Below, piece after piece: positions 48,523 to 51,463 of a DNA stretch of 51,744 nucleotides. The notes beneath the pieces are model-generated. The model saw only the letters and a program-made list of their open reading frames with translations. It was not told the DNA's origin and did no database searches. The position numbers and the translations under genes are program-made. Each line of letters opens with the position of its first letter. Position 1 is the first letter of the stretch. This stretch comes from Bacteroidales bacterium Bact_11 (GTDB taxonomy: Bacteria; Bacteroidota; Bacteroidia; Bacteroidales; UBA932): contig LUZC01000012.1 in the NCBI GenBank assembly GCA_001603505.1, forward strand, positions 74,725-126,468, given 5' to 3'.

Positions 48523-48532
48523 CGAAATTTTG

Positions 48533-48643
48533 CGCTGCAACGGACGCAGCAGTCAGTCAGAGACTTATGCAAAGTGCCCCCACTGGACGAGAAGGGGAGC
48601 ACTTTACATAATAAGCTGTCATTCAACTGCGTCCGTTGCAGCG
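48533..48643 (-). repeat. REP-like nested palindromic repeat, copy A
   Basis: A 111-bp element in inverted orientation relative to the other two copies. Outer arms CGCTGCAACGGACGCAG and CTGCGTCCGTTGCAGCG pair perfectly over 17 bp. Inside is a second hairpin with AAAGTGC/GCACTTT arms, and the segment CTGACTGACTG (read on the minus strand) is shared by all copies. The two other copies are at 49723-49833 and 51335-51445. The right-hand arm contains the stop codon of the ICMT-like gene, and the left-hand end lies 10 bp from the SPFH -7 box. No coding function is inferred, although reading frames cross it by chance. Confidence 0.9.
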
Positions 48644-49159
48644 AAACGAAGATGGGCGGCAGAGCGGGAACGGCAGGTAGCGGCCAGTGCGCTGCTTATA
48701 GGAAAGGTAGGCTTCGCCGAAGTCTTTCTCGAGGCGTTTCTCTTCGCTGTGGACCTGCACGGTGAGCAGCACCGCCTGTACAAGAAAAACGGCCAGCGGC
48801 CACCAAGCCCAAAGATAGATGAGCCAGCCGATGTCATAGAAATAGACGCCCAGCAGCATCGGGTTGCGGCAGATCCGGTACGGACCTTCGGTCATCAGTT
48901 CTTTGGTCCGCGGTGCCACCTCGTGACCGTAGGCATCAAAAGGATTTCCCTTGCCCACCTTCTTCATATATACGATGCTCCAGATACTCAGTGCCAGACC
49001 GGTGATAGCGAGCAGTGCGGCCACTATGATGCGGACCGCAGATTCCGGCACATACGGGCAAGGTCTTCCCGACACCAGCCACATAAGCGACGGAATGCCC
49101 AACACGAAGATGCAGAGCCCCAACAGATAACCCACACTGTCTTTGAATGTATGCTTCAT
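48623..49159 (-). CDS. Isoprenylcysteine carboxyl methyltransferase-like membrane protein
   Basis: 178 residues with four or five hydrophobic segments (about 10-30, 42-62 and 110-145). The family motif is clear: MTEGPYRICRNPMLLGVYFY (GPY...RNP.Y.G....) with the later EEKRLEKDFGEAYLSYKQRT (EE..L...G..Y..Y), matching the ICMT/PEMT-like methyltransferases (PF04191 and relatives). The last residues, SSFRCNGRS, are encoded by repeat A, which also supplies the stop codon, so the protein's original tail was probably replaced when the element arrived. It lies 3 bp downstream of ogt. Substrate unknown. Confidence 0.88.
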   Translation of the reverse strand: MKHTFKDSVGYLLGLCIFVLGIPSLMWLVSGRPCPYVPESAVRIIVAALLAITGLALSIWSIVYMKKVGKGNPFDAYGHEVAPRTKELMTEGPYRICRNPMLLGVYFYDIGWLIYLWAWWPLAVFLVQAVLLTVQVHSEEKRLEKDFGEAYLSYKQRTGRYLPFPLCRPSSFRCNGRS

Positions 49160-49162
49160 CGC

Positions 49163-49657
49163 TCAGATTTTTTGTTCCAGTTGCAGCAGCCGACGCTTGC
49201 GGTCGAGCCCGGCGGCATAGCCGGTCAGGCTGCCGTCCGCCCCGATGACGCGGTGGCAAGGGACAATGATGGCAACGGGGTTATGGCCAACCGCTCCGCC
49301 GACCGCTTGCGCGGACATGCGTGCCATTCCCCGTTGCTTGGCGATGCATTCGGCGATTTCGCCATATGTCATTGTCTTCCCATAGGGAATGGTCAAAAGC
49401 ATCTCCCAGACAGCCCGTTGGAAAGACGTGCCATGCAACGCCAGCAGAGGCGTGCGGGCCGGCACCCGGCTGCTGAAATAGCTGTCAAGCCAGCGGCAGG
49501 TTTCATCAAAAACCGGCAAGCGGCATATGTCGGGGAGACTGACGAGGTCAGAACCAGAATGGCGTTCTTGATCGAACCTCAGCCCGACCAGAGCCTGCCC
49601 GTCGCTGGCCATCGTCATTCCGCCCAGCGGCGAATCATAATGCCACGAATAGTCCAT
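49163..49657 (-). CDS. ogt: Methylated-DNA--protein-cysteine methyltransferase
   Basis: 164 residues. The active-site motif IIVPCHRVIG with acceptor Cys134 is intact, followed by GSLTGYAAGLDRKRRLLQLE (the G.L.GY..GL..K..LL..E signature). Earlier, TSFQRAVWEMLLTIPYGKTM then TYGEIAECI gives the helix-turn-helix recognition region, and AVGGAVGHNPVAI precedes the active site. It removes alkyl groups from O6-guanine in one suicide transfer. The ATG at 49657 is used because it gives the family N-terminus and follows a near-consensus -7 box (TATCTTTA, 49670-49663). First gene of an ogt-ICMT pair. Confidence 0.95.
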   Translation of the reverse strand: MDYSWHYDSPLGGMTMASDGQALVGLRFDQERHSGSDLVSLPDICRLPVFDETCRWLDSYFSSRVPARTPLLALHGTSFQRAVWEMLLTIPYGKTMTYGEIAECIAKQRGMARMSAQAVGGAVGHNPVAIIVPCHRVIGADGSLTGYAAGLDRKRRLLQLEQKI

Positions 49658-49716
49658 CTTTGTAAAGATACTCACTATTCCCGAAACCGCCAAATCGTCC
49701 GCCGCCCCCCTCCTTC

Positions 49717-49839
49717 TTTTTCCGCTGCAACGGACGCAATTGAATGACAGATGATTATGCAAAGTACTCCCCCGCGCCGTGAGGAGGAGTACTTTACGTA
49801 AGGCCCTGACTGACTGCCGCGTCCGTTGCAGCGGAAAAA
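49717..49839 (+). repeat. REP-like nested palindromic repeat, copy B (next to the RAYT gene)
   Basis: The 111-bp core is 49723-49833; flanking T and A tracts extend the outer arms to 21 perfectly paired bases (49717-49737 with 49819-49839). The inner hairpin AAAGTACTCC/GGAGTACTTT lies at about 49760-49795, and TTACGTAAGG and CTGACTGACTG follow it. It differs from copy C at nine of 111 positions by my count. It ends 64 bp before the ATG of the RAYT transposase and lies between that gene and the divergent ogt gene. Confidence 0.92.
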
Positions 49840-49903
49840 AGAGTTTGGAAATCTGACAAAAGATACCGACCTTTGAAACAGACATTCTAAAGTGGCGAAA
49901 GAT

Positions 49904-50818
49904 ATGAAGGGGCGAAACAAACCGGTGATCAGGCCTGATGCCATCCATCACATTTACCAGAATACGCGGCACGGTCATCTGATTTTCTATTCAGTAAAAG
50001 ACTACCTTGTTTTTTTATCGGTTGTGTCCCTATCGGCACGTAGGAACGACGTACAAGTTCTGGGCATCTGCATGATGCTCGACCACATTCATTTACTGGT
50101 CAAAGTCCATGACCCGCGCCAACTCATTTCATTCGTCAGGGATTATACGTCACGATTCACCAGACTTCATAATGACTACTATCAACGACAGGGAGCCTTG
50201 CTGAATCCTTATGGTTGTGCGCCTAAGATCGGACACAAGAGAATCCGCTCCGGCATTGCCTACCTATACAACAACCCTGTAGAGAACCATCTGGTGCTCA
50301 GGGCGGAAGAAGACCGGTGGAATCTTCTGGCATACGCAGCCAACCGGTATCCTTTTTCCGAAAAGGTCAGGATGGATTATGCCCGGTGGGAACTTCGGAA
50401 GGCATTGTATGAGGTAAAGGCCTCACGGCAGGGTGGTCGAATTTTGGAATACGCACAACTAGAACGGATTACCCGACATCTTTCTCCCCGGGAACTGCAG
50501 CAGTTTATCGATTATACCATTTGGAAATACAATCCTGTCGACTATCAGGCGGTCATCTGTTTTTATGGCTCTTATGAAGAAATGCTAACTGCCATCAATT
50601 CTAATACGGGCAGCGAATATGACTTGAAGGAAGATGCGTTCGCCAAAGACCACAGAATATACAAGCAGATGATCCATTATCTTGTGATTCATGGCAGATG
50701 GCTTTCCATGAAGGAAGTGCTCGATCTTCCTGAAGATGGGCGCAAACAGTTGGCGATCCAGCTGATCCGGCAGTTGGGTGCTACGGAAAGAGAGGCCGAC
50801 AAACTGCTTCGGCTCTAG
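49904..50818 (+). CDS. REP-associated tyrosine transposase (RAYT, Y1/HUH family)
   Basis: 304 residues. The N-terminus MKGRNKPVIRPDAIHHIYQN is typical of Bacteroidota RAYTs. The HUH metal motif is DHIHLLVKV, with His61 and His63. The predicted catalytic tyrosine is Tyr120, in the family block SGIAYLYNNPVENHLV (equivalent of YIHxNPVxAGLV). Residues about 135-304 form an extra C-terminal region ending AIQLIRQLGATEREADKLLR, which looks helix-turn-helix-like. The gene is visibly more A+T-rich than its neighbours, suggesting a foreign origin. It is flanked by copies B and C of the 111-bp repeat, its likely substrates. A GTG at 49892 is an alternative start. The stop overlaps that of the convergent phosphatase (CTAG). 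Confidence 0.92.
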   Translation: MKGRNKPVIRPDAIHHIYQNTRHGHLIFYSVKDYLVFLSVVSLSARRNDVQVLGICMMLDHIHLLVKVHDPRQLISFVRDYTSRFTRLHNDYYQRQGALLNPYGCAPKIGHKRIRSGIAYLYNNPVENHLVLRAEEDRWNLLAYAANRYPFSEKVRMDYARWELRKALYEVKASRQGGRILEYAQLERITRHLSPRELQQFIDYTIWKYNPVDYQAVICFYGSYEEMLTAINSNTGSEYDLKEDAFAKDHRIYKQMIHYLVIHGRWLSMKEVLDLPEDGRKQLAIQLIRQLGATEREADKLLRL

Positions 50819-51267
50819 GACAGTTGCTTCATCAAGGCCTGGCAGCCAGTGTAGATGTCATTATAGGCGGTTTCAAAATCGCGGGTATACCACGGGTCAG
50901 CGACGGATCGGTGTTCACCGGCATAGTCCATCAGCAGACGAACCTTGCCTTGCGGATCACCGCCTGCAATCCGACGGATGGCACGCAGATTCGCTTCGTC
51001 CATTCCGATGATCAGATCGTATCGGTCATAGTCGGCGGCCGTCATCGGGCGGGCTGTCCGAACGGGATCATAGGGAATACCGTGAGCACGCAGGGTGCGG
51101 GCTGCCGGCGGATAGATGGGGTTGTTCCACTCTTCCTCGCTGACCGCCGCCGAGGCTATTTCGAAAGCATCGGCTCGCCCGACCCGTTGCAACAGGTGCC
51201 GCATCACGGCCTCCGCCATCGGGCTGCGACAGATATTTCCCAGACAAACGAACAAGATTCTTTTCAC
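50815..51267 (-). CDS. Low-molecular-weight protein-tyrosine phosphatase
   Basis: 150 residues from the GTG at 51267. The P-loop CLGNICRS is at residues 8-15 (CX5RS, with Cys8 as nucleophile), followed by PMAEAVMRHLL, SAAVSEEEWNNP in place of SAGT, and the general-acid segment VADPWYTRDFETAYNDIYTG. The GTG is chosen because the promoter box TATATTTG (51278-51271) overlaps the codons of the next upstream ATG at 51285, and the GTG gives the usual VKRILFVCLGNICRS start. The gene lies between the RAYT gene and repeat C, so it is enclosed in the repeat-flanked region. Confidence 0.92.
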   Translation of the reverse strand: MKRILFVCLGNICRSPMAEAVMRHLLQRVGRADAFEIASAAVSEEEWNNPIYPPAARTLRAHGIPYDPVRTARPMTAADYDRYDLIIGMDEANLRAIRRIAGGDPQGKVRLLMDYAGEHRSVADPWYTRDFETAYNDIYTGCQALMKQLS

Positions 51268-51270
51268 GAC

Positions 51271-51278
51271 CGCAAATA
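51271..51278 (-). promoter_or_regulatory. -7 box of the phosphatase gene, close to its start codon
   Basis: TATATTTG on the minus strand matches TAnnTTTG and ends three bases before the GTG start at 51267, implying a leaderless or nearly leaderless mRNA if the box is used. The longer start at 51285 lies upstream of the box and is unlikely. Confidence 0.5.
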
Positions 51279-51334
51279 TACGCATTTTCGTGTGCAATTC
51301 GCGTTGCTTCCACCCTCCCCTGCCTGCCATTTTC

Positions 51335-51445
51335 CGCTGCAACGGACGCAATTGAATGACAGACGATTATGCAAAGTGCTCTCCCTCGCCGTGAGGGGGA
51401 GCACTTTACGTAAGGCCCTGACTGACTGTTGTGTCCGTTGCAGCG
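51335..51445 (+). repeat. REP-like nested palindromic repeat, copy C
   Basis: A 111-bp element in the same orientation as copy B. The outer arms pair as in B except for changes in the right arm (TGTTGTGTCC instead of TGCCGCGTCC). The inner hairpin is stronger than in B: AAAGTGCTC pairs with GAGCACTTT, extended by TCCCTC with GAGGGG around the loop GCCGT. The element lies between two divergent promoters, the phosphatase (-7 box 51278-51271) and the partial gene at 51476 (-7 box 51464-51471), and ends 18 bp before the second. Confidence 0.9.
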
Positions 51446-51463
51446 CAAAAGCGCAAAATTGTG

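Follow-up and report, generated by a model that had tools for sequence, protein, structure and literature searches.

What kind of system is formed by the long palindromes and the transposase gene that lie together near one end of a 51,744-nt stretch of Bacteroidales DNA? The stretch, called the window throughout, covers positions 74,725 to 126,468 of contig LUZC01000012.1 of Bacteroidales bacterium Bact_11 (assembly GCA_001603505.1; G000:C12:74725-126468 in our numbering), and G000 is a draft genome of 1.88 Mb that is 81% complete. The gene order at the window end is Band-7 gene - copy A - PEMT - MGMT - copy B - RAYT - LMWP - copy C - RIGHT, in which A, B and C are copies of one repeat, RAYT encodes a protein of the REP (repetitive extragenic palindrome)-associated tyrosine transposase type, LMWP encodes a low-molecular-weight phosphatase, and RIGHT, truncated where the window ends, is the gene to the right of copy C. 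The labels Band-7, PEMT, MGMT, LMWP and RAYT come from a family search; PPase (phosphoesterase), UDG, MATE and HAD are by-eye labels. We consider it likely, with a probability of roughly 0.7, that this locus is a REPtron-like unit, in which two direct 122-nt elements (copies B and C) stand on either side of an HUH-Y1 gene of the RAYT/TnpAREP type, whose enzyme most likely recognizes and copies them. Repeats and transposase change together across relatives, which, as far as sequence comparison can tell, points to a matched enzyme-repeat pair.

The sequence-only reading of this locus had described three 111-bp copies, with A inverted and B and C direct. Their number and orientation stood, but the bounds set by a covariance model gave a length of 122 bp. 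Within the window the copies form the direct repeat family D1 (70%, 100% and 92% over 121 nt) and the inverted pairs I1-I6, and the other two window copies gave BLAST E values of 1e-44 and 5e-26. The proposed two-level palindrome was borne out as a single nested 122-nt unit: as single-stranded DNA (ssDNA) each copy folds so that an interrupted middle joins an outer stem to an inner hairpin, and the folds beat shuffled sequences with z values of -7.7 to -9.5 (four folds; 0 of 200 shuffles as good, for each). Model R1, which represents the window's repeat family, found no further copy within the window at E <= 1, and a repeat search placed the repeat at at least 10 distinct places in its own genome (18 strand-wise matches). 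The window carried no Rfam family at the gathering threshold, and the repeat had no match in phage records.

The RAYT frame is open from the ATG at 49904 to 50818, with a GTG in the same frame at 49892. The catalytic residues named earlier, HIH at 61-63 and Tyr120, held up in an alignment of 21 sequences, in which H61, H63, Y120 and N124 are invariant and P125 nearly so; an HUH motif and a single Tyr within Y---NP are the marks of RAYT/TnpAREP class 2 TnpAY1. Pfam Y1_Tnp matched the window protein at E 6e-6, above the cut-off, and NCBIfam REP_Tyr_transpos at 30.5 bits, below its curated cut-off of 80; judged by the latter score the protein is a relative and not a curated member. Both models matched all 21 aligned relatives at E <= 0.1. 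In the AlphaFold model of RAYT (pLDDT 88), residues ~142 to 304 are helical. This C-terminal part gave no Pfam match among the 21 members, and none of them had a Bac_DnaA_C or helix-turn-helix (HTH) Pfam match at E <= 0.1, a search that a divergent HTH could escape; modeled on its own, it gave a poor model (pTM 0.40). As modeled, then, the RAYT subfamily bears a helical C-terminal part without a family match. A fold search with RAYT returned ISDra2 and IS608 TnpA as the best PDB matches and TnpAREP 4er8 at rank 12 (E 1.1e-3). By sequence, a single-sequence phmmer search of the PDB gave nothing at E <= 1 and a profile search gave weak matches, with IS200/IS605 transposases best (E 0.0011) and TnpAREP 4er8 at E 0.58. 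The ratio of nonsynonymous to synonymous substitution (dN/dS) was 0.05-0.24 in nine of nine RAYT pairs, with dS saturated in one and above 1 in another; the gene has therefore been kept, under purifying selection. One RAYT gene of the window's family was found in its own genome.

Among 61 genomes searched at E <= 0.001, the repeat DNA matched in 18 and the protein in 29. A scan of GTDB species genomes, in which only a single peptide pattern close to the catalytic Tyr was used, yielded 92 confirmed relatives, of which the best 80 loci were kept; these are titled Bacteroidales, Bacteroidia or (one) Prevotellaceae, and nearly all come from metagenome assemblies, many with ruminant-gut sample names. 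Pooling gave 122 rows, and removal of 33 exact duplicates (residues 21-120) left a set of 89 RAYT genes in which near-identical pairs remain. A symmetric-palindrome search found a strong palindrome (score >=12) on at least one side of 69 of the 89 genes and on both sides of 29 of 83. Within 300-bp flanks such palindromes were present upstream of 42/88 and downstream of 46/83 genes, compared to 0/440 upstream and 1/415 downstream in dinucleotide-shuffled flanks. Downstream flanks were extended to 800 bp if the first 300 bp were empty, which added 10 palindromes at 458-649 bp; the shuffles were 300 bp long, and 46/83 is the like-for-like figure. Among background tiles of 300 bp, taken from these loci at distances above 2 kb, only 20 of 720 carried a strong palindrome. 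The pairing of repeat and transposase, which had been proposed from position and the known biology of the family, thus gained support beyond position, both from this enrichment and from stems that track the RAYT tree. The two flanking elements lay on the same strand in 18 of 23 readable genes (8/9 own-type, 10/14 others) and on opposite strands in five (G008; G024 twice; G028; G004), where orientation, given near-palindromy, is a matter of the better-scoring strand. Element length is 122 nt in the window and about 105-122 nt in other families.

Elements of the different RAYT lineages share a layout of outer stem, short paired islands (TAA, CTGA/TCAG, TTA) and inner hairpin, and their stems differ by RAYT clade, with CGCTGCAACGGACGC in the window's clade and CGTGGC, CTGGAG, CTTGGC and others elsewhere. 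On average over 90 of the 98 RAYT-flanking elements (also the set used for the foot-tetranucleotide count below), pairing islands lie at 4-16, 21-23, 28-30, 36, 43-44 and 48-53 nt from the centre. Of the 98 elements, 40 had in the left half and 29 in the right an 11-nt dyad near CTGATNATCAG (a match at 8 or more of 10 fixed positions), against 2.2 per side expected by single-base shuffling. This motif was picked by eye in the same sequences in which it was counted, so the test is not blind, and the stronger point is its fixed offset to the element centre: 32-34 nt in 39/40 left halves and 32-33 nt in 27/29 right halves. Strict two-sided spacing (at least 6/10 on each side, fixed offset) was seen in 36/98 RAYT-flanking elements and 12/4450 random centres. 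Model R3, for which the CTGGAG family alone was used, detects each of the window's three copies (E 4e-8 to 5e-7). Covariation of the inner stem was judged in 34 own-family copies by five measures, two of them weak: there were 76 double-changed cells compared to 30.1 (standard deviation 5.3) in shuffles, a count reached by 0/500, and the covariation score was 0.230 compared to at most 0.085 for slid structures. The outer stem of this family hardly varies and holds little information on covariation; the inner stem keeps its base-pairing through compensatory change.

Both parts of the element diverge with the enzyme. Outer-arm identity fell with RAYT tree distance (rho -0.33), as did inner-stem identity (rho -0.32), in Mantel tests with 0/999 permutations as strong; these used the 65 of 69 element-bearing genes left by a distance and tree filter, with two short rows outside the tree. 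Dispersed copies add a little to this case: the nearest neighbour of 53 of 117 copies was in the same genome, compared to 20.2 expected and a maximum of 39 in 2000 permutations, and these neighbours are concentrated in G003 (35/53) and G023 (8). The genome search suggested by the sequence-only reading, besides the copies in the window's own genome, fetched 40 from the relative G003, which by eye share the sharp common unit TTTT[C/G]CGCTGCAAC..GTTGCAGCG[G/C]AAAA within flanks that look unrelated. Of these, 34 lie outside open frames of at least 150 codons and six inside such frames on one strand (L213, L219, L220, L221, L238, L246). The flanks of dispersed copies (L212-L251) are pyrimidine-rich on the left (70% of the last 10 nt) and purine-rich on the right (62% of the first 10), which would reflect either a palindrome extended past the 122-bp unit or a target mark. 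Arm types were also recorded: left ACGGAC with right GTACAT in 12/18 RAYT-flanking copies, and among dispersed copies ACGGAC with GTCCGT in 56/99 and the mixed ACGGAC with GTACAT in 31/99.

Repeat and enzyme also tend to occur in the same genomes. Model R1 matched 26/40 genus genomes and, with presence of the window's RAYT family defined as E < 1e-30, these were 23/23 genomes with the family and 3/17 without it, a difference whose Fisher value of 2.9e-8 overstates the co-occurrence because the pattern is not phylogenetically independent in an rpoB tree. For the expectation that the repeats should be scarce where the gene is lacking, the outcome was mixed: R1 was absent from 14 of 17 such genomes and present in three. 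None of the 14 R1-negative genomes had an R3 match and 13 had no R2 match (G026 has two). Three genomes added later agreed with the pattern, G063 having repeat and RAYT and G061 and G062 neither. Models R2 and R3 matched 27/40 and 26/40 genus genomes, and both cross-detect other families, which led us to drop a strict count of lock-and-key matches for each family. R1 match counts are not copy numbers, as most elements match both strands and at most 89 candidates were scored per genome. One draft (G018, 87% complete) had many R1, R2 and R3 matches and no RAYT of the window's family was found in it; it is a candidate for following repeats after RAYT loss.

The comparison of empty and occupied sites proposed for this locus could be made between species. 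At the MGMT-RIGHT site, G015 has no element, G004 has one element and G000 has the full element-RAYT-LMWP-element unit. LMWP adjoins the own-type RAYT in 11/11 genus genomes found with that RAYT, and also in L101, and it is convergent with RAYT even where the unit occupies another locus (L175-L187); it is possibly a passenger or a functional partner of RAYT. PPase stands beside the upstream element in six of nine own-type genomes besides G000 and G008 (G001, G003, G004, G027, G036, G063).

Dispersed sharp-edged copies, palindromes flanking the genes, common spacing, stems that track the lineage, purifying selection and one site seen with and without the element or unit find their simplest account in a REPtron-like system whose repeat would be the whole nested hairpin. 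From them we infer how the enzyme would read, cut and copy the element. Once single-stranded, for example on the lagging strand, the element would fold into one long interrupted hairpin. RAYT would take its class signal from the fixed spacing (TTA/TAA feet, and CTGA/TCAG islands at ~33 nt from the centre) and its lineage-specific address from the two stems, outer and inner. It would then cut near the T-rich and A-rich edges through Tyr120 and join element copies into new sites. With two elements round the gene, the entire element-RAYT-phosphatase-element unit could move or disappear, either by transposition or by recombination between the elements. A broader proposal, to which we give even odds, is that these genes form a distinct RAYT class of gut Bacteroidales, with a mobile interrupted hairpin of ~105-122 nt, a new helical C-terminal domain, a composite unit with a passenger gene and a two-part recognition code. 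The class-wide part of this code would be TAA, CTGA/TCAG and TTA islands about every 7 nt, with the CTGA/TCAG dyads centred at about 33 nt from the element centre, read by all members, and the lineage part the freely diverging inner and outer stems.

A number of results weigh against a REPtron-like unit. The elements lack a GTAG foot, as had been noted from the window alone: in 90 RAYT-flanking elements, GT[AG]G stood near the 5' foot of five and C[TC]AC near the 3' foot of none. No palindrome scoring >=12 was found on either side of 20/89 RAYT genes, six of them with one or both flanks unexamined. Spacing alone fails to separate flanking from background palindromes, as 6/20 of the latter also show the strict two-sided pattern, although these six look like dispersed copies. 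The two weak covariation measures were pairs with a double change (11 compared to a mean of 8.2, reached by 14/500 shuffles) and pair types (28 compared to 24.5, reached by 11/500). Tracking of stems and RAYT would also be yielded by vertical inheritance of a linked locus. Same-genome nearest neighbours were absent from seven of the 13 genomes, one of these having a single copy, and of the 40 dispersed copies of G003, 17 were nearest to its own RAYT-flanking copies and 21 to those of G000. Repeats occur without the window's RAYT family in the drafts G011, G018 and G019, which sit in clades also holding RAYT-bearing genomes and so fit RAYT loss; in five more drafts (G007, G015, G028, G033, G034) strong own-family repeats were accompanied only by other RAYT types. 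Of 30 genomes asked, 21 had an rpoB gene (partial in three of them), and the rpoB tree, with 21 genomes, gave three supported independent pairs, one concordant and two without difference. Finally, in G011 PPase abuts LMWP, and the upstream element and RAYT are missing; TA[A/G]TGCGGC stands at this junction and, in G004, at either end of the segment, a pattern consistent with loss by deletion between short direct repeats.

The confidences attached to these readings are not meant to sum to one, and two of the rivals may both be partly true. The palindromes might be host regulatory or chromosome-structure elements, such as mRNA 3' hairpins or protein-binding sites, maintained by selection after an old multiplication, with a domesticated RAYT that binds them without moving them. 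The single RAYT in the own genome, the purifying selection on related genes, the persistence of repeats in three genomes without the RAYT family and the 34/40 G003 copies outside open frames would all suit this idea. We nevertheless regard it as unlikely, as the element is present at one site in some genomes and absent from it in another, copies show some clustering by genome, and an ordinary intrinsic terminator is an improbable role for the outer stem. The intrinsic terminator was rejected as the main function of that stem in the window's family, where a T-run precedes and an A-run follows it on both strands. Spread and homogenization mainly by homologous recombination or gene conversion, by which the RAYT-phosphatase unit would likewise have entered a one-element site, is similarly doubtful: in its favour are the lone element that G004 has in place of the two-element unit of G000 and the mixed arm types (left ACGGAC with right GTACAT), but recombination alone puts no element into an element-free site, whereas the MGMT-RIGHT site of G015 is without one and the 40 G003 copies stand in seemingly unrelated flanks.

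Far less probable still is that the elements are miniature inverted-repeat transposable elements (MITEs) or insertion sequence (IS) remnants of an unrelated transposase that lie near RAYT by chance. Their long inverted arms resemble transposon ends and their copy number is MITE-like, yet the association recurs for RAYT clades with different stems, stem type follows the clade, and the inner hairpin keeps its pairing by compensatory change, which would be needless for an end read as a double strand. A REPtron-like unit remains the reading that we prefer.

The features of the locus are collected in the table below. The sequence TTTG-N20-GACCTTTG before RAYT is one that we take to be a putative Bacteroidetes-type promoter consensus. 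The inverted copies A and B frame the MGMT-PEMT pair in G000. This pair (window 48650-49660, L095:2681-3842, L192, L193), beside RIGHT or the RAYT unit, has one orientation in G000, G004 and G015 and is reversed in G008; with such inverted framing, recombination could flip it.

Table. Positions in the window of the repeat copies, their parts and the genes between copies B and C.
Feature	Position	Strand	Remarks
Copy A, 122-bp nested palindrome	48527..48648	-	Inverted relative to B and C; between Band-7 gene and PEMT-like gene
Copy B, 122-bp nested palindrome	49718..49839	+	Upstream of RAYT, 64 bp before its ATG, in the gene's orientation
Copy C, 122-bp nested palindrome	51330..51451	+	Direct repeat of B; downstream of RAYT and the phosphatase gene
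Copy B outer arm, left	49717..49737	+	21 nt, perfect complement of 49819-49839 (inverted pair I6)
Copy B outer arm, right	49819..49839	+	Inverted pair I6
Copy B left CTGA/TCAG-like island TTGAATGACAG	49740..49750	+	Read from sequence; motif family-wide
Copy B inner hairpin, TTA..TAA feet	49755..49801	+	Inverted pair I10, ssDNA fold, inner-stem covariation of the family
Copy B right CTGA-like island CTGACTGACTG	49806..49816	+	Read from sequence; motif family-wide
Promoter-like TTTG-N20-GACCTTTG	49844..49875	+	Between copy B and RAYT ATG; read from sequence
RAYT/TnpAREP-type Y1 transposase gene	49904..50818	+	304 aa; HIH 61-63, Tyr120, ~160-aa helical C-terminal part
LMWP, low-molecular-weight phosphatase gene	50815..51270	-	Convergent with RAYT and linked to own-type RAYT; between B and C

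RAYT/REP pairs are studied as a case of a domesticated prokaryotic transposase kept together with a population of tiny repeats. How the enzyme recognizes its repeat is understood for a few proteobacterial enzymes with GTAG REPs (PMC8266576). Within a single bacterial group, several RAYT clades carry parallel repeat families of the same spacing and different stems, which amounts to a natural experiment on recognition: it asks what in a single-stranded hairpin is read by its shape and what by its sequence. The repeat families are ready substrates for swaps, and the same-site series is material for testing movement.

How does the unit compare with known systems? With the REPtrons of E. coli, Stenotrophomonas and Marinomonas it shares an HUH-Y1 enzyme with the class 2 Y-motif (Y---NP), a gene flanked by palindromes that are also dispersed in the genome, a repeat type that follows the enzyme lineage, a single gene in the own genome and a fold match to 4er8. 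REPs are described as 20-40 bp long (PMC3733652) and RAYT-linked REPs as having a GTAG foot, a requirement that varies between enzymes (PMC8266576); the window's family is instead one nested hairpin of ~105-122 nt, neither short nor with a GT[AG]G foot, and its protein has 304 aa, whereas proteins of subclass 2.2 have a median length of 165 aa (PMC6006769). In TIRtrons, RAYT-like genes (TIRYT) are framed by long terminal inverted repeats (TIRs), some self-complementary or double palindromic and some in dispersed families (Di Nocera 2013, PMC3733652). The likeness lies in long repeats, distinct from GTAG REPs, on either side of a RAYT-like gene, whereas TIRtron repeats are drawn as terminal and inverted, some with GGGGWSAS (PMC3733652), and copies B and C are direct. 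The window's family further differs in its CTGA/TCAG spacing, and the C-terminal HTH/DnaA-like domain of subclass 2.1 gave no Pfam match in 21 members.

Two TnpAY1 subclasses of Quentin 2018 come near in other ways: subclass 2.6 of Bacteroidetes has atypical flanking secondary structures that are found elsewhere in the genome, and subclass 2.4 has long and double-foot REPs (PMC6006769). Bacteroidetes hosts and atypical or long flanking structures are thus shared, but on the published descriptions (PMC6006769) the window protein is set apart by its 304 aa compared to medians of 179 and 194 aa, by DHIH in place of NH[LIV]H or NH[IFV]H, and by the tabulated W motif, not seen between its HUH and Tyr. 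With IS200/IS605 elements (IS608, ISDra2) the unit shares the catalytic fold and the HUH-Y1 residues. Those elements, like the window's unit, have hairpins on both sides of the gene. They differ in having several near-identical copies per genome (PMC6006769), compared to one in the 81%-complete draft, and Y---Q where the window protein has Y---NP. The earlier view that the architecture is under-described holds only in part: TIRtrons and the subclass 2.6 structures are published (PMC3733652, PMC6006769), while the open-licence literature, with most subscription papers outside the search, gave no account of the window's family, of the common spacing or of its co-variation with RAYT. REPtrons and TIRtrons are the closest known systems, and the unit is of a known general kind with an unusual design.

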